The notes beneath the pieces were generated by a model. The model was not told the origin of the DNA, did no database searches, and saw nothing but the letters and a program-made list of their open reading frames with translations. Of a stretch of 64,000 bases of DNA, positions 20,959-59,271 are shown piece by piece (the stretch's first letter is position 1; every line of letters begins with the position of its first letter). The DNA comes from Antennarius striatus (lineage: Eukaryota > Chordata > Actinopteri > Lophiiformes > Antennariidae): positions 12,955,001 through 13,019,000 of the forward strand of contig NC_090784.1 of assembly GCF_040054535.1 (NCBI RefSeq), given 5' to 3'. The position numbers and the translations under genes were made by a program.

Positions 20959-22248
20959 ATGACAACAGAAGCCAGTGCAGTGAGTGAGGCGGACACTAAA
21001 GGCAAGCAGAAGGCCATCAGTACTCAGACTGAACCTGAAGAGAACCTGCAAAAGCCAGAAGCAGCAGCATCTAAATCTGAACAGGAGCAGTTGAGCAAAA
21101 AGGTCCAGGAGCAGGCCTCTGATCCTGGGCCTGCTGATGCAGCTACCTCCCCCGGGGAGGACCAGCTGAAGCCCCGTACACGGACGTCAGCTGGCAAAGG
21201 CCTGTCTCGCCTCTTCTCCTCTTTCCTCAAGCGCCGCTCGCAGTGCTCTGAAGGAGAGGGGTTTGAGGCAGAGAAAGCCAGAGAGGAAAAGGCTGACAAA
21301 GAAGCAAAGGCTGACAGAGAAGAGGAGAAGGAGAAAGAAGTGAAGAGTCAAGAGAAGGAGACTAAAGTGGAGGAAGAAACTTCTGAGGTAAAAGAAGTCA
21401 GAAAAAAGGAAGAGAAAGAGGTAAAAGAAGTTGAAAATAAAGAAGAAAAGGTACAACCGAAAGAAGCAGAGAAAGTCGAAAAGAAAGGAAGTAAAAAGAA
21501 AAAGAAAGAAACCAAGAAGAAAGTTGAGAAAAAGGATGAGGAAAAAGTGAAACAGGACGAGGATAAAAAGAAAGACAAAGAAGTACAAAAGAAAGAGGAG
21601 CAAAAGGAAGATGAAAAAACGCAGTATGTAGAAAAGGGTGAGGAACAACTGGAAACAAAAGAAGAAGCAAAGAAGGAGACTGCTGAGGTTAAAGACAAGG
21701 GAGCAGCAGCTGAAAAGAAAGAAACTAAAGAGGAGGCAAACATTGACAAGAAGGTTGCGAAGAGAAAAGAAAAGGAGGACAAGGTAAAGAAGAAGGAAGA
21801 AGAAAAAGCAAAGAGAAAGGCAGAGGAAGAAGGAAAAATAAAGAAGAAAGAAGAAGAGAAAGCAAAGAAGAGAGAGGAGGAAAAAGCAAAGGAAGCAGAA
21901 AAATCAAAGAAGAAACAAGAGAAGGCCAAAAAGAAGGAAGAGGAAAAAGCAAAAGAAGAGAAGACAAATAAGAGAGATGAGGAGAAATTAGAGTCAAAAA
22001 AGAAGGAAGAAAGGGCAAATGAAGAGGTAAAGAAGGAAAAGGAGAAGGAAAAGGCAGAGGAAGAGGACAAGGAAAAGAAAGAAGACGAAAGAGGAAAGAA
22101 GAAGGGGAAAGCAAAGGAGAAGGTGGTTAAAGGGCAGAGTGAGGAGCAGGTGAAAGCACCGATAGCTGCTCCAGAACCAGAGCTGAAAACCGAGCCGGAC
22201 GTCGAACAGGCTCCCGACCAGCACTCAATCAGCAGCGGCGAGACGCAG
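20959..22248 (+). other. epb41: epb41 headpiece exon with expanded Lys/Glu tract
   Basis: One 430-codon exon. The start ATG follows 'ctttctag|tggctacc' and gives [10 protein letters not shown], like the mammalian long-form start MTTE. Residues about 84-93 are [10 protein letters not shown], which in mammals lies in the Ca2+-dependent calmodulin-binding headpiece segment. Residues about 118-400 are almost only K, E, A, D and Q, predicted as charged helix or disordered. The exon then returns to the conserved [12 protein letters not shown]...SSGETQ block. The charged stretch is far longer than the human headpiece. The 310-aa minus-strand open frame here is only the mirror of this tract. Confidence 0.9.
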
Positions 22249-25200
22249 GTCAGTGAGACACTGATGATAACTTCTGACAATTGTGACCATCACAATAAAG
22301 GAGACTTGCTAATCTTGATATAATGCAAAGTGTTAGAATTGTATCAGCTAGTTAGCTTAGCATAGCATAGAGACCATAAACCGGCTGAAGAGCTTTGCAA
22401 CTCCACTTACCTACCTATATGTATATTTAATATGTATATTTCATGTGTTACATACATGTATGTATTTATTTATCTGCGTATGTATGACCCCCCCCCCCTT
22501 GCTGCCGCCGTCGTACAAATTTCCCATCTGTGGTACTATTAAAGGCTTATCTTATCTTAAAATTCTTTGAACCATCTGACAGAGGCAGGATGACTATTTC
22601 CTCCCACTACATATTTCAGGGATGGATAAGACAGACATATACCTCAAGGAGAGAAATTGACGAAACATATCACAATGTAAAATGCTTCAGTAATTGTCAG
22701 TGTGTGAGAGGGTCAAAATTTAATTGCCATTGCACAAGCGTAAAGTACAGGAGAAAGTCTCCTGTGAATATTTTTATGCTGCAGATTGACGGAGTAGAGG
22801 AACACATGTTTTTCTCTGTCTAATTAATTTTTTATGAGTTGGACAGCTTGGTCAGCAAAAGTAACTCCTGCTTTCAGCTGAAAGCCTGATCTGAAACCAA
22901 AATGATCCGTGCTAGTGTGAACTACAGCTGGCATCAAAAGCTGCACATTTATTCTTAACTAAATTGTATTAATTGTGGTTCATTGGAAAAACAAAATTGT
23001 TTAATTCGTTCTGTTTTGATCTCTGTTTGACATGCCTTCTAATTTTCTTGACTATACCAGCCACCTCAAGAAGAACACAAAGAAGCAGCTAAAATAAAGG
23101 AGCCTGAAATAGTAGAAGTGAGTGAGGATACAGAGAAAAAAGAGGAAGAACCTGCAGAACAGGAGACAGAAAGCAAAGGAGAGAAGAAAGCAAATGAGGA
23201 AGGGAAGAAGGGAAAACCTGTAAAGAAGACAGAGAAGAAGACAGAAGAGGCTAAAGGCTCCAAACATCAGAAAACCATGCAGTGTAAAGTCACCTTACTG
23301 GACAACACTCTGTTTGAGTGTGAGCTGGATGTAAGTTATATCCCACATTGTGAAATTTAATTTTAGCTTATAGTAATTATATGACTAAGGACTGATTAAA
23401 TCTCTTTCCCATTTTTCTGGCTTCATCTCTGTTGTGTAGAAACATGCTAAAGGCCAAGAACTTTTGACAAAGGTGTGTGATCATGTCAACCTGCTGGAGA
23501 AAGATTACTTTGGCCTCACTCATTCAGAAACTCCAACAAACAAGGTACTCTGACTTCATTTCCTCCACTTTTTCTGTCCCAGTGATTTTAGGTTCTTTAT
23601 GCAAGAAAAACAAGATATACAGCCCTGACACACTGAACGCTCTGTGGTGGTTTGAGAGCAGCTGGTTATATATTTGCACCTTTTTCCTCAGTCATGGTTG
23701 GAAGCCACCAAGGAGATCCGGAAACAAGTTTCTGGTGCTGTGTATGAGTTTACATTTTGCATCAAGTTTTACCCTCCTGATCCAGCACAGCTTACTGAAG
23801 ACCTCACCAGGTGACTGAAAATGTCTATTTCTTAGAAATATGACATGTTCATTCATGATCCCAAAGCCATCCCTGGCCTTTTCTTCAGCTGTCAGTGTTG
23901 ATTATTGGCTGTGTGGCTTTGCTGTTATGTCTTCTGTAGGTACTTCTTGTGTCTGCAGTTGAGGAGAGACATCATGCGTGGTGTTCTTCCTTGCTCGTTT
24001 GTCACACTGTCCCTGCTGGGATCCTACACTGCCCAGTCTGAACTAGGAGAGTATGATCCAGAGCTCCATGGAACAGACTATGTTAAAGATCTGAGTCTGG
24101 CCCCTGGGCAGAGCAGAGAGCTAGAGGAAAAGGTGATGGAGCTACACCGTACATACAGGTAATCAATGGAGATGGGTATATTACAGCGACGTGGTGATAG
24201 CAACTTTTAGTTAATGCAAGACTTTCATCAAGTGTGAGTCATCAGTTAGTCAATGTAATAAAGTGATAGATGATTTGAGAAATTTTTACAGTGAAACAAA
24301 ACTCTGAAACGACCTGTTTTATCTGTTTGTTGAGGTCAATGAGTCCGGCCCAAGCAGACATGTTGTTTCTGGAGAACGCCAAAAAGCTCGCCATGTATGG
24401 AGTCGACCTGCACAAAGCCAAGGTTGGTTTCAGATTACGTTTGAGATCACTGTTGCGTGGTTTAACAGAGGTGTAAGTTTTTCTTGGAAATTCTAGAATT
24501 CCAAAATTCATAGTCCAAATATGTACTAATATCCTTTCAATTTGAAATTGTTTATCACTGTTTGTCAATGTCATGCTTGTATAACAACAATAGAATTCAA
24601 AATGTAATTATGAAATTGATGTCAGCTCCCCTTTAAAAAAAAAGTAGAGATTAATAGCATTTCATACTCCGTGACCTAAAAATCCACATCTTCATAGTAT
24701 TAAAAAATCTGCCACCCAGTGGCAGCGAGTTGTAAGTACAGGGGTAGGTTGCACTGATTCAGTTTTAAAATTGTTATAAAATAATAAAATAATACTGTTT
24801 GTGCATGCAGGATCTTGATGGTATCGACATCACCCTAGGGGTTTGTTCCAGTGGTCTAATGGTTTACAAGGACAAGCTGAGGATCAATCGTTTCCCCTGG
24901 CCCAAAGTGCTGAAGATCTCCTACAAACGTAGCAGCTTCTTCATCAAAATTAGGGCATCAGAGGTAAATGTGCATTTTCATTATCCACATTTTGTTTATA
25001 TAATTGAATTCAATTTGTTTATGTGTATTATATCCTATCTCACAGCACCTGTCTGTTGCTTTAGTTTTAAATACTAACTTTTTACTCAGACTTAGACAAG
25101 TGTTTGGCATTTTGAGATTTGAGATTATTTTTATTTTTCAAAACGGTCTGTTTTCTGTTTTATATTATACACGACGACAGTGTACATTGTTTTTAGGTAT

Positions 25201-28200
25201 TTGTCCCAAGGCGTAGGTTTTTGATGAGGAATTTGCTAGACATAACCCCACTAGCCCGTCTGCATTTTAACAATATGGCTGTGACACACTCAGAAAATAC
25301 TTTTATTTATCTACTTCACTGTAATGTTCACATGATGCAGCTTCCTCTCTTGTTCATTCTCCTGCTGTTTGTCTCTTTGTGTCTGTTGTGTTAAGATAGA
25401 GAATAATTTTTTAATAACTTTTTCACAAACAGTAAACCAAAAAATCAGAAGTGAAATGGCATCATTAGTTTTCAGTAATGACGATTATTTTAACAACATA
25501 GAAATATATGATGGAATCCCCTGTAATTTAGTGTCTTCTAGTACTGACAGGATGCTAATTCATTCTATCTGGAATGTATATTTAATGTCATGTCTCCATA
25601 AAATCACCAACTCTTTATTTCTCTCTTCATCTACAGCAAGAGCAGTATGAGAGCACGATTGGCTTCAAACTGCCCCATTACAAAGCCTCCAAGAAGCTGT
25701 GGAAAGTTTGTGTTGAACACCACACGTTTTTCAGGTACGACCAGTCACTGTCACGTCTTTTCCTTAAGGACTTTTCCCGACAGGTCAGCACAGGTCACTC
25801 TCAGAAAATCTACAAACCTGTGGTTGTGACATTAGAATTAAACCCCAAAGCTTTTATCCGCATCAAAATATAATCTTCAATGTTGTTGCTGATCTCGTTG
25901 CAAAACACTGATAATTTTATGGAATTTTAAGTCTTTGTAATGACCTGTGATCTGTCTTGTGTTTGTACACCTGGTATGGGTTAGGTCCCCTTGACGATTT
26001 AAATGGCATGGAGTTGGATAGATGAAAATGAAATTATTGTGTCTGTCCTTCAGAGTGCCGTCTGTGGAACCTCCATCATCACGTCGCTTCCTGGTGTTGG
26101 GCTCAAAGTTCCGGTACAGCGGACGCACACAGGCCCAGACCCGCCAGGCCAGCTCCATGATTGACCGCCCAGCTCCTCGCTTTACCCGCTCTGCTAGCAA
26201 GAGACTGTCTCGTAACCTAGACGGAGGTATGCGCAATTGTGTGAACCCATGTGGGAAACTTTGCAGCACGCATTCACGTTCGATTCCCTATTATCTTCCT
26301 TATTTCGCTCGTTTAGCTGGAGATGACACTCTCCAGTACCTGCAACGACTCGCAGCATCAACCAGATCTGGGGTTGATGATTGGTCTCTAATGCTGATGT
26401 CTGACAAACACCAGCCTCCTCCTGAATTCCCAGGTACTGGGAGTTGTGTGGAACTGCAATAGTGCTCTTTGCCTTGTATTTGCAACGTGTGTTTTACTCT
26501 CGCTTGCAGGCAGCATTATCAAACCATTTAACTTCCTCTTCTGCTCTGGATCATTTGCCTTTAAGCCATTGAAAGGATTGCTTGTCAACTATGCCTCAGA
26601 TGGTTGACTTGCTTGACATGTTCTTTCCCTGGCACAATCCCAGGGTACCATTTGTCGCTGCCTATGAGGAGGAAGTTGTATCCTCTCATGCTTAACTGTC
26701 TAGGGCTGCTTTTGAGCATTTCTTAAAAGATTATGAGTCACTCTTTGGTTTCTGTTGCACCCCGGCTCTCATTTGCTTTTCGCTTCAGCATCTTGACTGA
26801 CTTGCATCACTGCTATAGTGACTTATTCAAACTGGATAAATCTGGAACACTGAAAAGGTAAGTATTTTACCCTTTTCGTCTGTTCTTCTTGTCGATGCAT
26901 CGTTGAGCTTCATACTAACTTCAGCTTACTGGACTTAAATAGTCTGGTGCAAATGCTTGACCTTAAATGTTTTTAAAATCTTGCTTGGAGCACTATGAAG
27001 TATTCAAAGTGGCCGTCATCTCTGCAGCAGAACTATTATCTCTCAACAGTCAGAGAGGAGTCTGAGCAGACTTTTGTTCATTCATGGGAGGAGGGGCAGT
27101 CTGTTCAAATGGTAAGAAAAACCTGGCAGGATACTGTGACTGGGCAAACTGCCCCTCAACCCATCACCCAGACAGCCAACCAGACGTGGAAGAAACTGGC
27201 ATCAGATGAGCAGCAGGAGAGGAAAGAAGATGAGTGGTCGTCTTTGCTCCACCGTCACCACCCTTTTCCTTTTGTCTCTCCGTTTGATTTTGTGAAACAG
27301 CCAGGTATTTGCAGTCATAACGCTCCTCATTGGTTATCTGTCAGTTGTTAGACAAAATGGTAACCCAGAGTCTTAAAATCTTTTTTTGGCTTTGATTTAA
27401 AAGAAACTCCATCTAATCCTTAATTGAATAAAGCATGCTTTTCATGAATGATATCTTTACATGCACATACACATATATTTTTCTATAAAACCAGCTGGTT
27501 GTTTTCAAGGATTTGCAATTCGACATTTGTTTTTCTGCTGGTCTGGCATAAAAATTGATGACTGTTGTTTCTCTGATATTGCCAGCTATAGTGAGCTTGG
27601 CAAAAGTGACTTCTTTGGACAGACTATTGCAACAAGCACTGACACAGCAAGATGATTGGTACCTTTACTTCAATCGAGAATTCAGCAGAACTCTGTTACA
27701 GCATGCTGACAAACCACGTGAGTTATTTTATGTTTGGAAATAAACCTGCCAAATGAAAAACGTTGCAAAAAGGCATTGACAGGCTGATTAGTGAATCAGT
27801 CTCATTGTTTTGCTTTCCACTTTACTCCCAGCTTCTCCCATAGCTCAGCTCCAGGAGGATGAAGTGAACATGTATATGACAGAGCAGGTACCAACCAGAC
27901 AAGAAACCATTGAAAGGCTGCAGGAAATGGTGACCTTGATAGACAAGATGACAGAGATGGAACTTTTGGAACAACAGCTGAAAGAAGTTAATGATTTAGA
28001 ACAAATGCTCCTAGAAGTGAATGATATGGCAGAGGAAGTAGTAGATGCAGTAGAAGATGAATTGGGCAAGGAGGAGGTGGATAGAATGAAAAAGGAAGAG
28101 CTAGCTAAAGATGTGGTTAAAACAGTGTTGGAGAGGTCAGTCAGAATAGTCGAGACAAACGAGGAGGAAGCAGATGAACTGGAAAATGAGATAAGACGAG

Positions 28201-31200
28201 TGTTTTTAAAAGGCTTGCTGCCTGAAGAAGGGGATGAGGCAAAGCAAGAGAGTGGAAAAGTTGTCACAAATGAGAGTCTTTCTAATGAAGGCTTGCAAGA
28301 GAGGGTATGGGAGGTCGACAGAAAATGGCAGAATGAGATTGAAGAGAAGTCCAAGTCTTCAGAAATCACCAGCACCGTGTCTGTAGCAGCTTTTGAAAAG
28401 GTGGAGCGCAGGACTAAGAAAAGGGTGACCATAGTAGAAGAGATAGGGAAGAAGCAAGAAGAAACAGAAGATGTCCAGGTACAGGCTGTGATGTCAGAGG
28501 AGGGAACAGAAGACAGGGCATGGTGTCAGACAGAAGCACAGAGGGAAGCTGTCAAAATCACGGCAACACATCAGTCCGAGGACCCCTCTCAGGTGACGGG
28601 TAAGGATGCCTGGTTCAGACTTTTTGACCGTTCACCATACAAAGAAGTTTTCATACCAGGTAGAGTATGCCATCACGCAAAGAGCTGAATCTCAAATACA
28701 GCAATATCACTACTATTTCTACTTCCTCACTTTGTTTCTAGACAATTGAGCAGTTACATTGACTTAATGTTAAATAGAAATTAAATGAGAAGTAAAGACT
28801 TGCTCTCAGCAAATGTTTTTTTTTTTGTTAACAACATCTGTGCATTGAAGTAGGTTTTTGTTAATATGTGTATGATTCCAATTTACTGTCAATAGCTACC
28901 ATTATGGAGTATGCTCAAATGGATGAAGGTGAGATTTTCACCCCAGTAGCTGAAGTTGAAGAGAAAGTGGAGGTCATAGAAGAAGAAAGACAATTTAGAG
29001 AAGAAGCATGGCGTGTTCCACACATCTCACCACGGCGAATCATTGCAGAAAGAGATGATGTCTGGTTTGTGCTGCTAGATGTGGCTTCCAGGCAAACAAT
29101 TTATGTACCAGCAGGTACGAAAACAACTTTTTAAAACTGGTTAGGCTTTGAGAATTTGTTTTGTTTTTGTTTGTTGGGTTTTTTTTGTTTCTTATTTTGC
29201 TTTATTGTAATGTAGGACACATGTGTTACTCCTTTTGTTAAAATACTTTCTCCTGACTTCACATTAGTTAAGATGAAGGAGAGTGACCCAGGGGACACAG
29301 AAAGTTTTATCTCTGAGGAAACAACTGGTGCAGGTGTGGAGATTAGAGAGGTAATAGCTCAAGAGTCAAAAGCATTAGAAGACGCGCAGAGAGAACCTCC
29401 AGAAATCCCACCGACAGACACAGCTGATGACTGGTTTGTGCTGCTGGATGTTGCTCCCAAAAAAGCCTCATTCATACCACCAGGTATTACTAATGTGTCA
29501 GGCACTGCTCTCACAAGCGAGCCAGTGTCCCAAACCATTTAGATCCTGTCATTCTTCAGTCCCCTGTGCTGTCTACAGCGTCTGAGGATTCATTATCTCT
29601 TTGTTTCAGTTGTTGCACAGCCTGTTGACGTGTCCCCAGATGAACGGGTCCTTTCAGTTGAAGTGACAACCACTGCAAGGAAAGAAAAAAGAGTGGATGT
29701 TGTGGTAGAAGACACAGATATAAAACAAGTGTCGGGTGAAAAGGAAGTAGTTATTCCCTCACTCTCTGTGAGGGAGATTGAAGATGAATGGTTTGTGCTG
29801 CTGGATGTTGTTCCCAGAGAGACTTCATACGTATCACAAGGTATTACTCATGTCTCCTGCACTGCTTCACAGAGCGAGCTTTTGCAGATGCTGTTATCCA
29901 GCGATGCCCTGTGTTGTCCACAGTGTCTGAGGATAAGTTTTCTCTTTGTCTCAGTTGTTGCACAGCCTGTTGAGGTGTCCCAAGAACAACATGTCCCTAC
30001 GGTCGAAATGACAACAGCTGCATGGCCACAAAAAAGAGGAGTTATTGAGGTAGAAGACACAGAAATTAAACAAGTGCAACATGAAAAGGAAGCTCTTTTT
30101 ATGCAGCCTGTTGTGAGAGAGATAGATGATGACTGGTTTGTGCTGCTGGATATTTTGCCCAGAGAAACCTCATACATGCCGCCAGGTATTTTTGCTTTCA
30201 GTTCTAATAAGCTTACGTTGGGGTTTTTGTCTCTAGTGTCTAACAACACTTGTTAACTATGTTTGACATCAGTTACCACGATCGAGTCCATTCTGGTTGA
30301 TCCTGAGGAAAGTGTTTCTACAAGCATCGAGTACAAAAAGGAAGTTGTGGTGGTGGACAAGCTCCTCCATGAACAGATTTTCAAAATGCAGAAAATATCC
30401 CAGCCTGTCAGAGAAAGAGATGATGACTGGTTTCTTTTGCTGGATGTTGTTCTAAAAGAAATGCCATATATCCCACCAGGTATTATTGGACTCAGTCGTG
30501 TTGAGGTTATTTAGTATTTTTTCTGTCCCTATTATCTTACAACACTCATTGACTCTGTTACACAGTAGTTACCAAGGCAGAGTCTACTCAGGTAGACCTT
30601 GAAGAAACCGTTTCTTCGATCATGGAGTCCAGGAAGGAGGTTGTACTTGACAGGATTGTGTTGTGGAAAGAGGACAAGAAGCTCCTCCATGAGCATCTTT
30701 TTCAAGAGCAGAAAATTTCCCAGCCAATCAGAGAAAGAGATGATGACTGGTTTCTTCTGCTGGATGTTGTTCCGAGGGAAATACCATATATACCACCAGG
30801 TAATGTTAGATTCCATCCCATTGAGGTTATTTTGTAAAAAAGTTTGGCTCCATTATCTTACAACACTTGTTGACTCTGTTTCACGTTAGTAACCAAGGCT
30901 GAGTCTACTCAGGCTGAAAGCATTTCTTCGGTCATAGTGTCAAAGAAGGAGGTAATTCTTGACAGGATTGTGGTGTGGAAAGAGGACAAGCATCTTTTTC
31001 AAGAGCAGAAAATATCCCAGCCAATCAGAGAAAGAGACGATGACTGGTTTCTTCTGCTGGATGTTGTTCCTAGGGAAACAGCTTCTGCCCCTCAAGGTAC
31101 TCACTGCCTTCAATTTTTTTTAATTTATTATTTTAACCCACTTTATCACATCAAGGAAAACTTTTCAAAGATTTTTTGTTTAAGTCAGATTCTTCACTTT

Positions 31201-34200
31201 TAGCTGAAGCTACAAATTCTGTTTGATTTCAGTTTCTCTGACAGGTCCAAGTGAAATTTATTCAAGTGTTCAACCTGAACTCAAAGTGGTTCTGTTAGAG
31301 CAGTTTAAGGTAGATTCTGACCAAATGAGGTTGCAACCTCCCCAGCCAATGCCAGAGAGAGAGGATGACTGGTTTGTGCTGTTTGATCGTCTCCGTGAAA
31401 AATGTGTCATAACACCACCAGGTATTCAGTTAATATTTCTTTGCACCTTATAAGAATGAACTCTTTTTCCAGTTGTTATATCCATGTACTTTTTGATTTA
31501 CTTTGTGGGAAAGACATATTTCTTGATGTTCTGGTGGCCTGCAGCATTTTTATTGTGTCTGTTTGTGCCAGTAGCTCCTGTTAAGATTGTTCCGGATATG
31601 AGGGAATCATTTGAGGTTGAGGTGAAAACCACAGAGACTACAAAGTGGAGAGAGATGATAATTGATTCGGACAGCAAGCGAGACGAGACACGCCTGTCTG
31701 AAATTAGACTGACTCAAATTGCATCACCGTCAGAGAGAGAAGGAGGAGATGATTGGTTCGTCCTTTTTGACGCTATCCATGAAAAGTCCGATTACATACA
31801 ACCAGGTACTATTTAATTTCAGTTAAGTGGAGACAATAAGCCAGAATTCAAAGATGTTTCACACTGTGATTGCCTCTAACATAGATAAAATATTGAATGT
31901 GTGGCATTGATAGCACTTTATTTCTCTATTAGTTTCTGTGGTTGAGCATATTGTGGATAAGGTGGCCGTCTCTGAATCCAAACCGAGATTCACAAAGGAA
32001 GATGTGACGCCACCTGTGAAACCTGTGGAGATTGAACCCCCCATTCCAAAAGAGGTGGATGATAACTGGTTTGTTTTGCTGAGTGTTGCAGCAAAAGCAC
32101 CAGGTATTATGTTATGTGTGTGACCTTTACCTTGACATGGGAGAATAGCGTTCTATCTGTTAAAGAGTTAATAGTTGAGAATATGCGGATTTTCAATTCA
32201 ATAATAGTGCTGTGGCTGAAAAGGTTATGTTTATCATGCAGCAATGGCTGTGGACAAACCTATCCAGGCGCTTCCAGCAAAAGACTTTACAGCCGTAGAG
32301 CAGAGAGTAAAGAAGAGAATCATTGTAGCTGAGGAGATGTGGCAGCAGGAGAAACCACGGCCAGCAGTGAGAGAGATGGAGGATGATTGGTTCATTCTTC
32401 TAGATGTGGCCGCTAAGAAATCAGGTATTATCAGAATCATACAAACATATATATGCAAACATTTCTATTTAAATGTATGTGAATATGATCTACCCTCTTA
32501 TTATGTGTATTGACCTGTAAATACAAGTATTCTAATATATTTTTCTGATAATAAAATACTCTTTATTTCCTCAACAATGCCTGGCGTTGCGTCATTAGTG
32601 GCCGCTCCCAAACGTAAGCAGGTTAGAGTTCCAGCAGCTGTGGCCAGACCTCGGGTTGGCATTTCTGACACAAGACTACAGTTTGGGAAACAGATCCTGA
32701 AAGAAAGACATCCACCTTTACATGTCAATCATGACTGGTTTGTTCTACTAGATGTTGTACCCAAAGAGTCAGGTATTCTTCTTAACTATTTGGTTGGTTA
32801 TCGTGCTTGTGTTTTTTTCTACTCATGCTTATTAACATTTGCTGCTTGTTTGCAGGACTCAACAAATTCTCATTAAGAGAGACAGTGTACACTGATGGCT
32901 TTTCTCCTCTTCTGCTATTCAACAAACTCACGCCGTGCTAAAAGTCATCTTGTGAAGAAAAAAACACTTTCTTAATTTCAACATGTCACCCGTTCAACCA
33001 TGTTGAGCTTAGGCCTGCAGCCTCATCCAACTTTGCATCTGTCATCTTTTGCTCTCTTTCTAACGTGTGGATCTTTGCTTCTGACACTTGTAAGGCTTTT
33101 ATCCTCGTAGAGATTAAACAAAGAGTCAGGTACAGTATGCCCCTGCAAAGTGTGCGCTCATCTTATCACAATGACGCTTGAGACTCCCAAGTTTTGAGGA
33201 TGTGACTTTGACCCTCCATAACGCATTGAGCTAAAATATATTTCCTTTTTTTACTAATATTTCCATTTTGCCTTTCTATTTTATTTGTATAGTGGTGAGC
33301 ACACAGAGAGGCATTCGACCTGTCAGCGCACCAGTCTTCTCCCAGGCTGCCCTGGCAGAGGCAGGGATCCCCATGGCGCCGCTCGATCAGCCCCAGACCT
33401 CGACTCCAATCAAGACCATCCGCAAGGAGGAGAGAAGGCTGGAGGTCACAGTGGAAGCTGTGGAGCCCTCAAAAATTGAAGTTGTAGCCGAGGACAAGGT
33501 ATTCTGTGTTTCTACTCCCAAGTTTACACACGCCTTAATTTCAGTATGTACCTGAATGCATTCAGGCAGGAATAATTTATATTTAGGTGAACTATAGAGG
33601 GCTTACAGGACGTCTGCTGACAGTGACAGAAAAACAAGTTTTTTAATGTGTCCTGGTGTTTGCCTGGATATTAAATGTAAATGTTAACCATTAAAACATA
33701 AAGAGCTTTAATAGCCTTAAACAAGCATATGCTATAGCAGTAGGCACAGGTTGTTCTGAAATGTGAACTGTGCTTCTGTTACTGCTGTAGTCAGCAGTGT
33801 GGAGGGACCAGAGAGATGTAAGCTCTTCACTAGTACCCACCATCAATGGGGATATTCAGGTTAGTGTCAGACACTGACCGCTCGCTCGTCACCCCTCAGA
33901 AGTGTGAGTTTTAAATTAAACAAGCAGAGGATGATAATGTGTGTCCCTCTCTCCTCCCTGGGTTAGCACGCCACTGAGCCTGTGAGCATGGAGGTGGTGC
34001 GAATGCGAAAGGTCAGATTCTGAGCTCTGTATTTGTTCCTTCAGTCATCTCTCCACCTCCATCCTGCTGCTGTCAGACTGTCTCGTCCAAAATTCTAATC
34101 TCACCTTCTCCCCAGGTTGAGCCTCCACGTAGACAGGTCTTAAATTAAATCAGATCTAATACAGGTACTGTAGAATTTAAAAGGTATAAGATGTAGGAAT

Positions 34201-37200
34201 GGATAAAAATTTTAAGTTTATTGGTATTATACATCAGAGACTAGGCTTGCCTCTGTATAATTTTAATTATATAAGTTTCCACAGCCATTCATTAATTTTC
34301 ATTGCTTGCTGTTGTCAAAAACCCTGGAATGTATGTATGCATGGTTGTAGATAAAATGCACTTAATTCAAAATAGCATGGTAACTCTTGTTTCATCACAC
34401 TCCTGTTGCTTCTCCATTCTTTATATTCATTTTGTCGTTATAAAAATAGAAATCTTTAGTCCTGACATTCTCTCCTTTGTTAAGAACTACTGTGTTATCG
34501 TCACTGCTCTCTGTGTCTATGGTATTAACACTGTAATGAACTGTGTAGTGTGCATGCCAAAGATTTGGCAGATAAAAGCCTGCACGCAGAAAAAAAAAGA
34601 AAGAAACAAACCCACACTCTTTTTTTTCTTTTCATTTTTCACAGAAAAGAGCTAAGAAAATTGAGGGTGACTCAATTTATATCAGACATAGCATTTTAAT
34701 GTTGGAGGTTTGTATCCCTTCTGGAGACGCCAGTCTCTGTTTGTATTTTCTCGCTCTTTGGCACAACATCTGCTGCTTTTAACGTCACGCTTGCATGCAG
34801 CATGATTCACGCTCTTTTCATCAACGTGATTGATTGGTTATGGATTATGTGGTAAGTGTTGGTGTGTGTTGCAGTGCAACTTTAATCCAAATGTTTCAGG
34901 AGAGTGCTGTCGAAGCATTGGGTTTAGTCAGGAGTCTTACACCGGTATAGAAAATGCTGTACTACACAGCGTCCTTATCCGTCCCTTGTGAGGGGGCTGA
35001 TCATTTAGCTTTCACTTAATTGGGGAAAGCAATGAATCTATTCTTTGCACCAGTTTTCACAAGCAGCTGTTGTTTTTATGTGATATCTTATTTTCTTCTT
35101 GATCATCAGTATTCTCCTGTTCCTGCTTTTGCTCTTTCCACTTCCATCTCACTTTTTAACTTGCCCATAATTATACTGTACTTGTAATAATTATACATAT
35201 ATGCTGCTGTAAATGAACGGTGCTGCTACTGTTGCTTTTAGTCATTTGTGTTAAATGAACAGATTCATTCTTACGGAGGCTTCATTTTTGATCACCTCTA
35301 CTGCTCTTTGATTTGCAGCCTGTTTTCACGTCTGTCATTCCAAGCCTCATGCTGTGATATTGACCCTTAATGCTGTGTTGTAAAGCTCAGATTCTCTAGT
35401 CATTCAAAGTCATAAATCTCTGATAAATGTTGCCATTTGTTGTTATATATGTAATCTGTCAAGAGCCTGTACCATCTGATTATCTAAATTAATGGCTTCC
35501 TCTAATTGCCCCAAAGAATCCCCACTTTATTGTGCTGCTTATCTCCTCTGAAAGAAATTAACACAATTTATACATAAACAACAGAATGAAACATGTTTTG
35601 ATTATTTTCTTTATTCTCTCTTTCTTTATCTCACCTGCCCTTCCTTTTCCATTTTCCCCATCCAAAAATTTTCCCACTTCTTACTTCTCCACCACTTTTT
35701 ATTTTCCTGAATCACCTGCCTTTATCAAATTTCCTTGCTCTTTCCTCCCCTGTACCCCATCACACTTGCCCTTGACTAGGAGTTTGATAAGCCTCAGGAG
35801 GACTTGCTGAAGCATCATGCCAGTATCAGTGAACTGAAGAGGAACTTCATGCAATCTTTACCAGAGCAGAGGCCTAGTGAGTGGGACAAGCGCTTGTCAA
35901 CCCACTCTCCTTTCCGCACTCTGGGCGTCAATGGCCAGCCTCTGGCCAGTGCAGATGGGGTAAGACTTCAACAGGCACCACTCATTATGAATTCTGTTTT
36001 AGTTGAGCTGGAGCTGTTAACTAAAAAGTATTTCAGTTGAATTAGATGTCCTGATCCCTGAGGATACACATGCTCCATCATGTGTGTTTTCCATGCCTCT
36101 GGACTAAGATTACTGCAATGGAAACATTGAGTGTATGCATGGCTTTGTGATGGAACAGAAGGGCTTGAGTTTCTCCTTTTACTGTTTGTTTGTTTGTTTG
36201 TTTTTTAGTATTTTTGACATTTGTGTAACTTTGGACATTGAAATGCAACATGCTGCTTTTACATGATTTTAAGAAAGTGAATGAAACTTATAGAAAGGAG
36301 ATCAGGCTCTGCTCGGGTTCTTATACAGGTTAAATGTGATGCATTGTGTGCATGGACGGACTGATTCAAAGTGATGGCATGTACTCTGCAGCACATGCAT
36401 GTGTATGAAGAATGCAGCTGGGCTTGATGAAGGGTCTGTACTTCTAGTCTCTCACTCACTGATGAGGGTTGAGGCATCTTTGGGACAGATTGTCTGTTCT
36501 TTGAGAACCTCTTTGGTTCCACTCATCTGCACTGAATGCCTCTGACCCCTGACATCCTGACGTGTTGCATGACTGACAGACCTGACATTGACCTTAAACT
36601 GCATGACATAAGAGATTCATTTTTGCACGCATTTTTGTGATGCTGAGCCGAATTGATCTTTGCCTCATTCTCTTCTACCCCTTTTTCACGAGCTTCCCTT
36701 TTTTAAACCTTCTTTTCACACCACCTTTCACCTTTTTCGTGTGCTTGTTAACGTGAAGAGACCTCATGTGTATCTGCAGCCCTACTCCCGCTATTGTAGA
36801 TGATAATATAACTATATAACTAATATACAGTACTTGTAATCAATACTGGTTTTATTCAAGACAAGTATATGAAAACTCAAATGCACTGGTGACAAAATCC
36901 ACTTTATTGGAGCTGCTGTCATACGTAATAAGTCTCATTGCTCCTGCCAGTGCAGATAGACTTATATGGCGAGGTTCATAATTAAAGTAAGCTGCAGTTT
37001 CTTTTCCTGCTATGGGCTTTAAAATACTGACATTGTGAAGCACCGTCACCGCTTCAACTTACTTCAGACTGGAGTTCATTTTGTCGTTGACATCCAGCAG
37101 CTTCAGGCACAATAGCATCTATTTCTTGTTGAAAGAAAAAACACTGCGCATTTAATGAGAAAATTCAACCCCACAGATATATAAATGGTATTATAATGTA

Positions 37201-40200
37201 ATACAATGCTACAAGTGTGAATGGCCTTCTGTTCAAATGCATGAGCCAATAACATTTCCAACAAAATTGCTATCCAAGTCATACTTTAAAAAATAAAATA
37301 AAAAAAAATTCATACATGCTGATGCAGCTGGCATTTTTTATTTATTACTTATTTTATTATTTTTTATTATTTGGGTAATCAGCTGTGCACAACTTTTTCA
37401 GTTCATTTTTCGTCATGGCAAACATTTCAAATTCCTCCCTCTCATCTCTTGTCCCCCCCCCCCCCCCAGTTTGTCATCCGCCTGCCACGCGGCCCCCTGC
37501 TAGACTTCTACTCCAAACGCAGCTGAGGGGCCGTGTCCACCTTGCGGGAACCCCACACAGGTGTGAGTGTGACCTGTGGAGACTGCACCATCTACTGTAG
37601 CCATCAACCTGTCTCTAGCTTTCTCTTCTTCTCTCCTTCCTCGGGCTCCTCTTCAGCATCACTGTTACATCCCTCATCTCTCATCCACTGCAGAAGCTAC
37701 CCTTTCTTTCAGTCCTCCATGGAAACAAGACTTTCTTTTTCCCACCATAACACAACTTATAAAGACTGATTTGGACAGGAAATGACAATCAAGTCGCTTC
37801 TATTTTGGATTTTCTCTTCCGTGTATTGGACTTTAAATGAATCAGTTTTAACAAGCAACTGACTTTTATCTGGACTTTTTTTACCGAGTCACTTTGAGCC
37901 TGATTTTATACACAGTTTTAGGTATATTTATATTATTGGTTGTCTAAGGGTATTGTATTTGAATGAACTGATCACTGTGATGTGATTTTTTTAATATAAA
38001 GTAGAAACTATGATTTAAGCTCTAGAAAAAAGCACTTTTGTTACTGGGAAATTTATCAGTACTTCGTCACAACAGAAGTTCCTGTGTTGGGAGACCCTGA
38101 GGCAGCCTATATTTAATTCTTCTTAACCTCTCTGTCTTCACCATTATTTTGCAAGGCGGTATGCAGGAACTGCAAGACATTCCTTGTTGCATGGCTTTTT
38201 GATCATCAGTTTTGACCAAAGAATTAAAAGGCATTCCAAATACCCTTCATATGATTGCCTGTTACTTTCAGGGACCCTGGATTTTAACCTGGTTTCAGAT
38301 TCATTTTTTAATGATCAGTCTGAACGGTCTGTTAAAACAGATATGGCTTGTAGTTCTTCCATACTGAGCAGTACACATATTTAGCATATTTGGAAACCTA
38401 AAGGAAGTGTCTCTTCCTGTGGAGATTCAGCATCTTAAAAAATGGTACTTTTTAGCATGCATACATTTTAATGTACAGGATGTAACTGACCTCCACTACA
38501 CACCACGTCAGTAAGAAACATTTCTCCTGCTGATCACACAGTGACTATGTTGTGTCTTTTTTAGAGCATGTGTATTAGCCCTGTGTGCAATGGTTCAGAG
38601 ACAAAGACTGCACACAAGGAGTACTGCAACACATCGGGAATTTCATGCATGCCAAGTTCCACCATGAGCCACATGAATGAACCTGGTTGTGACGGAGTCC
38701 ATGGCGCAGATGCTCTGCTTGAGGAAGAGTCATGTGATCAGGAAGAGATTGTAGGTTTTGAGACTTCCTTGGTGCCCATCATAGAGGTGGAGATGGCTCC
38801 GTCTCTTGACTCCTGCGGTAGAGCTTTAAATGAGACCCCAGAAGAAGATGAATCCTATTTCAAAGCTTCAGAGCTCTCCAGTAGGATAGCTGAACCTTCC
38901 TCAGCTTCCTATTTAACGATTGGTGGTCCACTGGTCATACGCTGCTTCCAGGTAGCCTCCCGTCCCCCTCGGGGTGATGCTGATTCTGTCTCTGCTTTGC
39001 CTCCATATGATTTTCAAACATGCCAAATTGCTTACTCCTTTGCAGCACAGTTGAACGTCACATTTGGGAATCTCTAAGGAAATTCACTGAGTCCTTGCTG
39101 GTGTGAATTATGTTCATCATATTTATAGATAACTAGTTGCTGCAGAGGTGTTGCATGGTGGTGTGCTGACTTGGTGATTGGGTCACTGCAACACTAGCTC
39201 AATCTTCTCTGCCACACATTGACACAACTCTCCATTCCATTTATGGCTTGATGTTCCCCATTCCATCTTGCATTTATAATGGTCGGTGGTGGGATGGGAA
39301 ATGAGGTGATTCTGGTGATTCCAACAGTCATAACAGAAACAAATCAAGTGGGAACAGCTGCTGTGGTGAGGCAGTGGTTTAAGAAGAAGTGCTTGGTGTG
39401 AAACAAGGTTGCTGTGAGGTGTGGTGTTGGGTTAAACAGCTGCTCATGGGGCTGTGCTCCCATCCACAGCCCCCTCTGGTGCAGACTCAGACAGTCACCA
39501 TCACAGCTGCCTCCAACACCTTACCCAGTTGCATCTCTACCACAGAGGTCCCCATCGTTCCAACCAAGACCTTCATCTATAAGTCTCCAAAGGTAGGGGC
39601 TCCAGCACCTGGCTAGCCCAGATCTGTGTCAGGTTTAGGTAATCAGTTAGCACGGTGGGAGAAGTCATCATTGTAGTTCCACCAGGTCTGAGAGGATCTA
39701 AGGGCAGCAGCTCAATATAAGGCAGATCAGTGTCTGAGGAAGTGCTCAGGGTCGCAGTTTTCAGAAATAATTATTCACACCACCATTGCTGGTCTTTATA
39801 TCACAGGAAACAGATGACAAAGATAGCACGACTGTGTCCAGCTCCAAGAGTGTTACCTCAGAGATCACCAGTGGCACCACCGTCACCACCACCACCACTC
39901 ACATCTCAAAGGTCAGCAATACAATCATGCTGTGGGTGTAGTCACTTTATTTCGTCTGATTGTCTGTTTCATACATTTACTTTCCTCTACCAGGTAGTGA
40001 AAAGTGGATCATCGGAAACTCGTGTGGAAAAGAGAATTGTGATCACTGCAGACTCTGACCTCGACCTCGATACGGTACAAATTGTTTGCCCATGACACAA
40101 AACAGTCATGGACACAATTTTAAAAGATTGGTTTGATGTTGTTTGTTCTTGCTAAGATCTAGTTGAGGTTATACATATGATTTGAAGGAACAACTGGTTG

Positions 40201-41316
40201 TTCTGGTAGTAGCCATTCTACTTACGGTTTTTGGTATTTTCTTAATGAAGTAAAATAACAGTGAAGAGAAAATGTTGTTCTATATCAAATTGTTACTCTG
40301 TCGTTATACTTAGTATGTTAAGTAACCTACTTAATATATACAGTATTTTCCGCACTATAAGGCGCACCGGACTATAAGGCGCACCATAAATAAGTTGTTT
40401 GTTTTATAATTTATTTCATATAGAAGGCGCACCGGATTATAAGGCACACACAATAAAAAATAAAATTTATTTGACAAACTGCAGCGGCTGTAGTTGCGCA
40501 ATCCGTCCACTAGATAGAGCCGCGCTGCTCAGGCAGTAATGATTGCATTCATGGCCCCTGTTATGTCAATAAGCCATTCTGAGCCTCATCAAGGAAACCT
40601 GATCACTTGATCACTTTGCCATCTTAAAAATAAGTCAACACACATATTAAAAAACCTGACATTAAAAACTGGTTAAATTCATTACGAGTGCAGTCAGTGT
40701 GAACAGAGCGCATTATTTCCTGATCTGAAGTTCGAAGCAGATATTTAAGCTCCGACATTCGTCTTCGTTTATTTATTGTTTCGATGGGTAGTCCAGTCGG
40801 AGGTGAGGTGCAGCTATTTGCTGCTGTGTGTCCTAAACAATTTTTTAACTAGTTTTTAATGTCAGGCTGCTAATTTACTGGAAAATGCGACGCTGTTTTA
40901 CTCCTAGAACTGATTTTAACGTCGGTGTCTCACCGCCGTGAATCTCACAGCACGTCACTGCAGACAGAGTGTCCCCTGCCTCACGCCCCCGGTTGGCTGG
41001 GATAGGCTCCAGCACCCCACCACCCGCGACAGCGGATGAAGCGGCTAGAAAATTTATCAATATTATTATATTAAATATATGACAATATATAATATAACAT
41101 CTAATAATATATTATTATATACCTAATATGTTAAGTGTTATGAAGACTCCATAGTTAAAGAACAAACATGAGACACTGTGTGATTTGAACTGCATGCTCT
41201 CACATTTTTCCCTTTATAACAATCTAATGAAGGATTGAGTCAGTTCACGCAAGGCTAATACAATTCCACGTATTCTTTGTCTGCAGGGGAAGGATGGAGG
41301 AGCATCAGCATTGTAA
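20959..41316 (+). CDS. epb41: Protein 4.1R, greatly enlarged
   Basis: Membrane-skeleton adaptor linking spectrin-actin to band 3 and glycophorin C. Exons: 20959-22248, 23061-23330, 23440-23544, 23692-23810, 23940-24158, 24335-24422, 24811-24963, 25637-25734, 26054-26226; then 16 repeat exons (26317-32772, separate entry); then 33293-33498, 33791-33859, 33967-34011, 34116-34136, 34645-34707, 35780-35959, optional 38565-38951, 39470-39592, 39807-39911, 39994-40074, 41287-41316. Every junction has AG/GT sites and the phases agree, giving 2,420 codons without the optional exon. Identity as 4.1R, not 4.1N/G/B, rests on the headpiece motif [10 protein letters not shown], the block [12 protein letters not shown], the FERM core and [10 protein letters not shown]...[18 protein letters not shown]. 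Human 4.1R is 864 aa. The exons at 33967 and 34116 are the least certain. Confidence 0.92.
23277..23279 (+). other. epb41: Internal ATG at the FERM start, like the 80-kDa 4.1R initiation codon
   Basis: The ATG of [10 protein letters not shown] is in frame with the exon 23061-23330 and corresponds to the downstream start MHCKVSLLDD used for the 80-kDa erythroid isoform in mammals. Use of this site would omit the whole charged headpiece. Confidence 0.6.
23280..26226 (+). other. epb41: epb41 FERM and FERM-adjacent domains
   Basis: Seven to eight exons encode a complete FERM domain: F1 from CKVTLLDN to the KEIRKQV region, F2 ([68 protein letters not shown]) and F3 (DIILG-like [49 protein letters not shown]). 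The FERM-adjacent segment follows ([39 protein letters not shown]). All residues in the membrane-protein-binding core look intact. The last exon ends in phase 1 and joins the repeat array or, by skipping, the exon at 33293. Confidence 0.93.
26317..32772 (+). other. epb41: Array of 16 tandem phase 1-1 exons with a WFVLLD core
   Basis: Exons: 26317-26433, 27050-27304, 27586-27717, 27832-28659, 28896-29114, 29268-29483, 29610-29840, 29955-30185, 30273-30479, 30569-30799, 30890-31096, 31233-31421, 31575-31805, 31933-32103, 32242-32424, 32599-32772. All are split after the first base of a codon at both ends. Each ends with an acidic stretch, W-F-V/L-L-L-D or a variant, about 10 residues, and usually P-P-G whose last Gly codon spans the splice site. 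Variants are DDWSLML (unit 1), DEWSSLL (2), DDWYLYF (3) and DAWFRLF (4); units 5-16 are much closer to one another. Unit 4 is 276 codons with a long acidic predicted coiled coil. The array adds about 1,274 residues between SRNLDG and the [11 protein letters not shown] block. Function is not known to me. Confidence 0.85.
33293..35959 (+). other. epb41: epb41 spectrin-actin-binding region, including the 21-residue exon
   Basis: After the linker exon ([13 protein letters not shown], compare the mammalian R-P-T-S-A-P block) come small phase-0 exons. The exon at 34645-34707 encodes exactly 21 residues, [20 protein letters not shown] plus E, matching mammalian alternative exon 16, which is induced in erythroid maturation and needed for strong spectrin-actin binding. 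Exon 35780-35959 supplies the rest of the domain ([32 protein letters not shown]). The 21-residue exon lies in a long intron context and is a good candidate for regulated splicing here too. Confidence 0.85.
37470..37526 (+). CDS. epb41: Possible alternative 3' terminal exon of epb41
   Basis: A strong polypyrimidine tract (15 C) and AG precede an open frame in the right phase (0) that reads [18 protein letters not shown] and then TGA, followed by about 1 kb without an open frame. Joining to exon 35780-35959 would give a short form ending before the C-terminal domain. It could equally be chance intronic sequence. Confidence 0.35.
   Translation, partial: FVIRLPRGPLLDFYSKRS
38565..38951 (+). CDS. 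epb41: Candidate 129-codon cassette exon of epb41
   Basis: The acceptor 'ttttttag|agc' and donor 'ttccag|gtagcc' bound 387 bases that are open and phase 0 at both ends, so the segment fits between 35959 and 39470. It is acidic and Ser/Cys-rich ([11 protein letters not shown]..., [25 protein letters not shown]). If not spliced at 38951 the frame continues to a stop at 39077. Mammalian 4.1 genes have alternative exons at this position, but I see no sequence match to one. Confidence 0.5.
40350..40465. repeat. Dispersed repeat with internal 'ACTATAAGGCGCACC' direct repeats
   Basis: 'ttttccgcactataaggcgcaccggactataaggcgcacc' followed by a third, diverged copy at 40430-40448. This motif is common in fish genomes as an end of a non-autonomous DNA element. 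The complementary other end was not found, so the copy is a fragment. Confidence 0.65.
40970..41055. repeat. Fragment of common fish dispersed repeat
   Basis: 'ggttggctgggataggctccagcaccccac' and 'cagcggatgaagcggctagaaaat' are characteristic phrases of the repeat family also seen at about 1985-2240. Confidence 0.65.
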
Positions 41317-46676: not shown

Positions 46677-47170
46677 TAAAGTTTCAGGATACATCAAGTT
46701 TCAGGATACATAAAGTTTCTACATATCCAAACCTACCCTAACCCTAAACCCTACCCTAACCCCAAAACCTAATCTCTGAACCTAACCCTAATCCCTAATT
46801 TAACCGAACCTTAACTAACCTAACCTGACCTAACCTAATCTAATCCTTTAACGCTAACCCCAATTCTAACACAAAACCTAATCGTAACTCTACCCTGGCC
46901 CTATCCTTAACCCAACCTTAACCCCCAAACCTAACCCAACCCCTTATCCCTGACGCTAAACCTAACCCCCAACCTTTAACCTAACCCTAACCCTGACCCT
47001 AAACCAAACCCCAGTCCTCTTACCCGAACAATAACCACAACCCCTAATGCTAAACTAACTCTAACCCTGACCTCTTACCTCTACAGTATTACCCCTAATC
47101 CTTAACTCTACCCTACCCTAACCCTCTCCTAAACCTAATCTTAACTTTACCCCTACCCCTGGTCCTTAAA
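46677..47170. repeat. Interstitial telomere-like (CCCTAA)n degenerate tract
   Basis: After two or three copies of 'aagtttcaggatacat' (46677-46720), about 440 bases consist of degenerate C-C-C-T-A-A-type units (accctaaccctaaccctg and many variants such as cctaacct and cctaatcc). Reverse strand reads TTAGGG-like. It lies between the 5' end of csnk2b and the 3' end of aif1, far from any chromosome end in this contig. Confidence 0.85.

Positions 47171-55842: not shown

Positions 55843-59271
<3,429 letters not shown>

Follow-up and report, generated by a model that had tools for sequence, protein, structure and literature searches.

The window, a 64,000-nucleotide stretch of the Antennarius striatus genome (contig NC_090784.1, positions 12,955,001 to 13,019,000), carries on its forward strand a gene of the protein 4.1R type, whose parts outside the exon array are as follows.

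20959 to 41316, plus strand: whole 4.1R-type gene model from start codon to stop, 34 coding exons, 2,414 residues, matching P0001 over model residues 1-2302
23061 to 26226, plus strand: exons 2 to 9, FERM domain and FA region, the last one (26054-26226) ending in phase 1
33293 to 33498, plus strand: first exon after the array, part of U2, entered in phase 1
34645 to 35959, plus strand: exons 29 and 30 (34645-34707 and 35780-35959), spectrin-actin-binding part with the SAB match
39470 to 41316, plus strand: exons 31 to 34, part of the C-terminal domain and the stop codon

Residues 1-2302 of the model are 100% identical to an NCBI protein of the same species (P0001, named 'uncharacterized'), in which all 16 array exons are present without difference. 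The array and the 4.1 domains therefore belong to one gene, which had already been predicted. The domains of P0001 follow the order known from 4.1, namely FERM_N, FERM_M and FERM_C, then FA (795-837) and SAB (2243-2291). Against solved structures, the FERM domain scored 510 bits with 1gg3 (4.1R) and 445 bits with 2he7 (4.1B), and is thus closest to 4.1R among the matches listed, which include no 4.1G or 4.1N chains. These comparisons support the assignment of the gene as a protein 4.1 with FERM, FA and SAB. The 4_1_CTD profile has no match in the P0001 isoform, while P0120 and P0058 match it at positions 5-79 and 5-77 of 107, respectively. The conserved tail of the C-terminal domain was not found in the window, with only the first 18 residues of the gar tail matching at E < 0.01, and the window gave no Rfam match at the gathering score.

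The array had been placed between the FERM-adjacent region and the spectrin-actin-binding part, which agrees with our analysis, as it starts four residues past the FA match, with about 125 residues separating its end from SAB. Human 4.1R has a short linker at this site and, to our knowledge, no such array. All of the 16 consecutive exons reported at 26317-32772 were recovered, each with a length divisible by three, in phase 1-1 and flanked by AG and GT; they comprise 3,828 nt or 1,276 residues, a slight correction of the earlier figure of about 1,274. W codons are given by their position in the window.

26317 to 26433, plus strand: R1, divergent, core VDDWSLMLM, W codon 26382
27050 to 27304, plus strand: R2, divergent, core EDEWSSLLH, W codon 27235
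27586 to 27717, plus strand: R3, divergent, core QDDWYLYFN, W codon 27657
27832 to 28659, plus strand: R4, long, 276 residues, core KDAWFRLFD, W codon 28611
28896 to 29114, plus strand: R5, core DDVWFVLLD, W codon 29063
29268 to 29483, plus strand: R6, core ADDWFVLLD, W codon 29432
29610 to 29840, plus strand: R7, core EDEWFVLLD, tandem copy of R8 including the intron, W codon 29789
29955 to 30185, plus strand: R8, core DDDWFVLLD, W codon 30134
30273 to 30479, plus strand: R9, core DDDWFLLLD, W codon 30428
30566 to 30799, plus strand: R10, core DDDWFLLLD, W codon 30748
30890 to 31096, plus strand: R11, core DDDWFLLLD, W codon 31045
31233 to 31421, plus strand: R12, core EDDWFVLFD, W codon 31370
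31572 to 31805, plus strand: R13, core GDDWFVLFD, W codon 31754
31933 to 32103, plus strand: R14, core DDNWFVLLS, W codon 32067
32242 to 32424, plus strand: R15, core EDDWFILLD, W codon 32388
32599 to 32772, plus strand: R16, core NHDWFVLLD, W codon 32736

Apart from R4, the units are 39-85 residues long. The preliminary description had assigned a WFVLLD core to the whole array; this literal string is confined to five of the 16 units (R5-R8 and R16), the others carrying WFLLLD (R9-R11), WFILLD (R15), WFVLFD (R12-R13) and WFVLLS (R14) or diverging further, as in R1-R4 (WSLMLM, WSSLLH, WYLYFN and WFRLFD, respectively). The P-P-G motif said to span the splice site proved to come from translating on into the donor site. 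In the spliced message the split codon encodes V or A, and a unit ends in PP only in R6, R8, R9, R10 and R12 (five of 16). Twelve copies of a 47-nt core repeat, spaced 294-384 nt apart, argue together with the identical database protein that the array is not a product of chance. R7/R8 and R9-R11 are tandem copies of exon plus intron.

Each unit consists of one D-D-W-F-x-L-[L/F]-D motif and a variable spacer, with identities of 0.839 for the motif core and 0.524 for the spacer (25 acanthomorph proteins, after 3 of 28 had been dropped). Core statistics were collected from 831 cores of 73 hand-picked proteins, and a shuffled-linker control of the core scan returned one match in 73. Position 0 is aromatic in 829 of the 831 cores, a scan that leans to W because it was seeded with W-bearing cores, and at least one acid is present at -3 to -1 in all 831. 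D at -2 is nearly fixed (663/680 acanthomorph cores), a stricter constraint than plain acidity. L, I or V occupies +3 in 702 cores, whereas +4 is L, I, V, M or F in 809 and hence constrained at least as much; +2 is free. Beyond an acidic-W-x-x-hydrophobic pattern, F at +1, a hydrophobic residue at +4 and D at +5 are conserved. No Pfam model matches the unit, and no solved relative was found by sequence at E up to 10, although the latter is weak evidence because the query is short. The Uversky measure (0.436 vs 0.441) makes disorder a narrow call, and an AlphaFold2 model of one unit, of low confidence (mean pLDDT 61.9), has the core as coil and the spacer as a weak helix.

We were curious about the origin of the spacer. 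From 503 non-redundant spacers, taken from proteins of salmonids, smelt, early teleosts and acanthomorphs, the first 150 were made into a profile. It scored 19.5 against the hairpin of the 4.1 C-terminal domain, whereas none of 300 column-shuffled controls exceeded 14.6, with the reservations that the HHalign probability is only 13.8% and that column shuffling destroys strand periodicity. The profile did not match FERM, U2 or headpiece profiles. Derivation of the spacer from this hairpin may be taken as a lead only.

Relatives are widespread in ray-finned fish, with the same layout in many fish proteins, so that the array is not peculiar to A. striatus. Unit counts differ between proteins: at least ten units are present in 49 of the 55 acanthomorph proteins scanned, while short arrays occur at the same place in gar (3 units) and in sturgeon and paddlefish (4 units). 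As these three carry 3-4 units, the array in its short form predates the teleost genome duplication, and it grew in teleosts. Array-bearing relatives are named 'uncharacterized', 'titin-like', 'titin', 'trichohyalin-like' or, in cyprinids, 'protein 4.1b'. An earlier description of the array was not found in the open-licence papers searched, in line with the preliminary description. Among candidate papers, the passages on carp and salmon splicing concern epb41l3b and an RNA-binding protein, the 'titin-like' entry of a halibut vesicle proteome is a killifish accession that is not assignable to the array gene, and a zebrafish circular-RNA paper matches only inside its reference list.

The expectation that the array can be shortened or removed without frameshift is borne out by predicted isoforms that lack complete units, or the array altogether, with the frame intact. 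The array differs in 12 of 31 isoform comparisons (9 species), mostly by whole units or in its entirety, and is unchanged in the remaining 19; like most of the database proteins, these isoforms are computational predictions. This also leaves room for an annotation artefact, in which the exons would rarely or never be spliced into the transcript, since some predicted isoforms lack the array. We regard such an artefact as highly improbable, because open frame, splice sites and phase are intact in 16 of 16 exons, the layout recurs in many fish with the motif conserved at the protein level, and dN is lower than dS between recent copies (0.100/0.303 for R10-R11 and 0.187/0.791 for R9-R10; R7-R8 is weaker at 0.279/0.395).

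Of the two functions previously offered, the much stronger conservation of the short motif than of the spacer favours a multivalent scaffold over an elastic element. We favour, with some reserve, the view that the array serves fish 4.1R as a multivalent docking segment, tunable by splicing and probably disordered. Each symmetric exon would supply one copy of the motif on a variable spacer, so that many molecules of a partner with a single pocket for it could assemble on the stretch that links FERM, the anchor to the membrane, with SAB, the anchor to spectrin and actin. Inclusion or skipping of entire exons would adjust both valency and reach while keeping the frame. The W-seeded scan, the few xLIR matches, the constraint at +4, the lack of L/I/V at +3 in R1 and R3, the near-fixed D at -2, the narrow disorder call, the low-confidence structural model and the unchanged isoforms are points against this reading.

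As the core fits acidic-W-x-x-L, our leading, if quite tentative, guess for the partner class is the ATG8 family (LC3/GABARAP) or, related to it, the FIP200 claw. It is conceivable, though rather unlikely, that the array consists specifically of LC3-interacting regions in series, which would tie the membrane skeleton to ATG8-decorated membranes in the manner of the giant ankyrins, for instance in nucleated red cells. The LIR core [WFY]xx[LIV], in agreement with the consensus given in PMC7615515, is found in 700 of 831 cores and in 14 of 16 in the window (R1 and R3 have no L/I/V at +3); W, which that text ranks as the strongest residue for the pocket, stands at position 0, +2 is free, and the modelled core is non-helical at low confidence. 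PMC7297954 lists validated LIRs in the sister skeleton proteins ankyrin-2 (WVIV) and ankyrin-3 (WIEF), describes RTN3 as working with six LIRs, and gives in Table 1 one LIR with F after W, ataxin-3 WFNL. Nevertheless, few validated LIRs have F after W, and the stricter xLIR regular expression is matched by just 16 of 831 cores, because F at +1 falls outside it. Moreover, the LIR consensus makes no demand at +4, so that the conserved hydrophobic residue there is not accounted for by ATG8 binding. A 4.1R-ATG8 link was not found in the open-licence papers searched.

The residue at +4 speaks instead for a short helix, W-x-x-L-[L/F] (phi-x-x-phi-phi), docking to another partner, possibly spectrin, a FERM or coactivator pocket, or the gene's own FERM. 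In 15 of 16 window cores both +3 and +4 are hydrophobic, and the near-fixed D at -2 resembles a helix cap. However, the low-confidence model has the core as coil, and many units have a proline around +6 to +8, which leaves little space for a helix; we consider this a serious but still doubtful possibility. The acidic dileucine signal [DE]xxxL[LI] for AP adaptors fits 9 of 16 window cores and 471 of 831 overall, but it has no need of the W at 0 that is the common constraint, +4 is often F, and some units have V or N at -1. Dileucine sorting was thus rejected as the shared constraint and is very unlikely to explain the array. A spacer that gives elasticity or sets length, after the manner of titin PEVK and with the W motif incidental, would agree with the many symmetric, skippable exons, a feature of the PEVK segment too, with the charged chain and with the name 'titin-like' given by NCBI to several relatives. 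Yet P+E+V+K make up 37.5% of the array as against about 70% in PEVK and titin domains are absent, for which reasons the titin-like naming was rejected. As the motif is also conserved far above the spacer, elasticity appears improbable.

If the docking motifs were LIRs, which we hold to be a doubtful proposition, fish 4.1R would be a multi-LIR scaffold with about 14 ATG8-binding motifs, their number set by splicing, joining the spectrin-actin skeleton to ATG8-coated membranes. Such a scaffold would have begun in early ray-finned fish and been amplified in teleosts, and no natural protein known to us would then be richer in LIRs than fish 4.1R. Among red-cell proteins, 4.1R is a textbook case; should an undescribed motif array account for about half of it in many fish, studies of fish 4.1R isoforms need to be read anew. 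Many fish genomes label the array-bearing gene 'titin-like', 'titin' or 'uncharacterized'.

Among known systems, ankyrin-2, ankyrin-3 and RTN3 share the acidic-W-x-x-hydrophobic core, and RTN3 also several LIRs per chain. The giant ankyrins have one strong LIR each, whereas the array would offer many candidate LIRs, one per exon, with conserved F at +1, hydrophobic +4 and D at +5 in addition. From titin PEVK the array is set apart by one conserved W motif per exon. FERM, FA and SAB stand in the order of 4.1R (EPB41) and its fish co-ortholog epb41b, but in the frogfish protein an additional stretch of about 1,276 residues separates FA from U2. According to PMC10245139 and PMC6765189, zebrafish epb41b, identified in the former as merlot/chablis, underlies an anaemia model. 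The closest parallel in exon history is piccolo b, one zinc-finger exon of which is tandem-duplicated 8-16 times in teleosts; its author stated at the time that no other strong exon amplification in one of two ohnologs was known to him (Nonet 2012, PMC3484663). In both genes one exon type was amplified in tandem, with gains and losses of single exons, here with the recent copies R7/R8 and R9-R11 and with varying unit counts. Piccolo b carries a Pfam zinc finger, whereas the present unit is a short motif without a Pfam model, so that a Pfam domain-count survey would miss it, and the 4.1 array is already present in gar and sturgeon. After piccolo b, the 4.1 array may represent a second duplicated teleost gene in which an exon was strongly amplified.

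Rebuilding the gene from the window sequence gave 34 coding exons in a single open frame of 2,414 residues, of which the sixteen tandem units R1-R16, each built around a tryptophan core (D-D-W-F-x-L-[L/F]-D), take up exons 10-25:

Sixteen-unit array in the gene model
26317-26433 (first) to 32599-32772 (last), + strand, units R1-R16

The preliminary description of sixteen consecutive phase 1-1 exons in 4.1R was borne out, with lengths divisible by three, phase 1 in and out, and AG/GT ends in 16 of 16 units, and the extra length it noted stands as well, the exact figure being 1,276 residues instead of about 1,274. The flanking exons match, that at 26054-26226 leaving and that at 33293-33498 starting in phase 1, so that any subset of these symmetric units could be skipped without a change of frame. 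Scored against solved structures, the FERM-FA part of the model reached 510 bits with 4.1R (1gg3) and 445 bits with 4.1B (2he7). The top database match to the model was P0001, isoform X2 of an Antennarius striatus protein annotated as uncharacterized, in which a Pfam search placed FERM_N, FERM_M, FERM_C, FA and SAB on the flanks of the array and no domain inside it. P0001 begins three residues earlier and differs at the 3' end, while no difference was found across model residues 1-2302, array included. On this sequence identity the array is already present, within one gene, in public predictions, and P0001, although itself a prediction, speaks against the separate gene that had been named as one case that would overturn the description.

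Isoforms predicted in databases were compared within nine species, a difference being scored when more than 15 array residues changed. Such a difference appeared in 12 of 31 comparisons and was absent from 19; for the most part whole units were involved. Two units differ in the predicted isoforms P0022 and P0050 of Larimichthys, two or three in those of Toxotes and Etheostoma cragini, and the whole array is absent from those of Echeneis (P0162), Myripristis (P0168) and Scleropages (P0172). The cuts are less regular in the predicted Scleropages isoforms P0171 and P0175, the latter also being without part of U2.

Identity to the window units was 0.839 in the nine-residue core vs 0.524 in the spacer, measured on the 25 acanthomorph proteins left after 3 of 28 were set aside for having no anchor. 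With W as position 0, a scan of 73 hand-picked proteins yielded 831 cores, from seeds that bore W and thus with a bias towards it. Of these, 829 had an aromatic residue at position 0, 721 had F or Y at +1, 702 had L, I or V at +3, 809 had L, I, V, M or F at +4, and all 831 had one or more acids at -3 to -1; +2 was the freest position within the core. An identical scan of 73 shuffled linkers gave one match. Among acanthomorph cores beyond the first four of each protein, L, I or V stood at +3 in 434/460 and a hydrophobic residue at +4 in 454/460.

The array is a tandem exon amplification within a known protein. A 47-nt core repeat occurs 12 times at spacings of 294-384 nt, and longer repeat families, R7/R8 (78%, 207 nt) and R9-R11, span intron and exon, which shows that exon-intron segments were duplicated in tandem. 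Among recent copies, dN was below dS for R10-R11 (0.100 and 0.303), R9-R10 (0.187 and 0.791) and, with a weaker contrast, R7-R8 (0.279 and 0.395). W, F and the L at +3 are unchanged in all 12 units of the R5-R16 alignment; R1-R4 are divergent. In Lampris incognitus P0116, the long unit that is the counterpart of R4 holds an additional internal tandem repeat, GSSDLEGxSPEVVVQRIEKR. Compared with the hairpin of the 4.1 C-terminal domain, the spacer at 29268-32103 (pooled fish units) scored 19.5 in HHalign, against a 300-shuffle maximum of 14.6, at a probability of just 13.8%.

In the database search 312 proteins matched at E <= 0.001, and the species among the matches listed (best 120 of 312) are ones we take to be acanthomorph fish. 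A shorter query (50 matches) added salmonids, smelt, cyprinids, a loach, a catfish, Albula, Anguilla and Scleropages, and a further search (8 matches) returned Scleropages, Lepisosteus, Acipenser and Polyodon. Since short W units lie at the matching place, between FA and U2, three of them in gar and four each in paddlefish and in one sturgeon entry out of two, the array, judged from sequence, arose with short units before the teleost genome duplication; it was then enlarged in teleosts, given that 49 of the 55 acanthomorph proteins scanned have at least ten units. No tetrapod or shark match was found among those listed in searches restricted by length and shared words, limits under which a restriction of the array to ray-finned fish is tentative at most; the human 4.1R linker is not known to have a unit of this type. 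The array is not uniform among the fish proteins: FA is directly joined to U2 in the goby proteins P0161 and P0165, and no core was counted in P0167, P0168 and P0170 (goby); these missing units may be losses or isoforms. Few units are present in P0081 of Brachionichthys, presumably a fellow anglerfish.

The cyprinid and loach matches carry the name protein 4.1b, and by the names of its cyprinid relatives the frogfish gene is a candidate epb41b co-ortholog. The zebrafish epb41b promoter is reported to label red cells (PMC10493226), and epb41b is given as merlot/chablis (PMC10245139).

The C-terminal domain appears shortened (39994-41316): of the 51 C-terminal residues of gar 4.1, used as a tblastn query, only the first 18 match, at 40018-40071, and for the remainder no match in the window fell below E 0.6. 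The final exon translates as [13 protein letters not shown]. Candidate alternative exons lie 3' of SAB at 37470-37526 and 38565-38951; one would terminate the protein at ...LLDFYSKRS, and the second codes for [10 protein letters not shown]..., used by P0001 near its end. The first coding exon (20959-22248; 1,290 nt) is very long and K/E-rich, with many short imperfect repeats. At 46735-47011, inside the window, some 277 bases form a degenerate (ACCCTA)n tract that resembles telomere repeats, among the following neighbours:

Neighbouring features
44180-44527, - strand, casein kinase II beta exon
50176-50481, + strand, immunoglobulin-domain ORF
52812-53231, - strand, immunoglobulin-domain ORF
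55843-56115, - strand, cytochrome P450 exon
60943-61455, - strand, reverse-transcriptase ORF (RVT_1)

By a small margin the array falls on the disordered side of the Uversky limit (0.436, with the boundary at 0.441), and an AlphaFold2 model of one unit (mean pLDDT 61.9) shows the core as coil; by these predictions its chain is probably disordered. Because the motif outlasts the spacer, the copies are many, the chain is probably disordered and the placement is between two binding domains, the array is best interpreted as a multivalent docking segment between the membrane-binding and spectrin-actin-binding domains, whose valency splicing would set. We consider a docking array, for a partner of any kind, somewhat probable, and its partner is a testable question. 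Known motif classes were compared for the partner. One sub-case, which we hold to be rather unlikely, takes the units as candidate LIR motifs for ATG8 (LC3/GABARAP); just 16 of the 831 cores fit the stricter xLIR pattern, and +4 is constrained no less than +3, a helical motif being the other sub-case. Yet acidic-W-x-x-[LIV] is described as the LIR core (PMC7615515), common also to FIP200-binding FIR motifs, F follows W in the validated ataxin-3 LIR WFNL, and several LIRs can function on one chain, as reported for RTN3 (both PMC7297954).

The array is real, conserved, widespread among ray-finned fish and unnamed. In the open-licence literature on 4.1, fish and arrays we found no prior description of it, and a 2024 review of 4.1R contains none of the terms 'fish', 'zebrafish' and 'teleost'. 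Its nearest analogue is piccolo b, in which a zinc-finger exon is reported to have been amplified 8-16 times in teleosts (PMC3484663).
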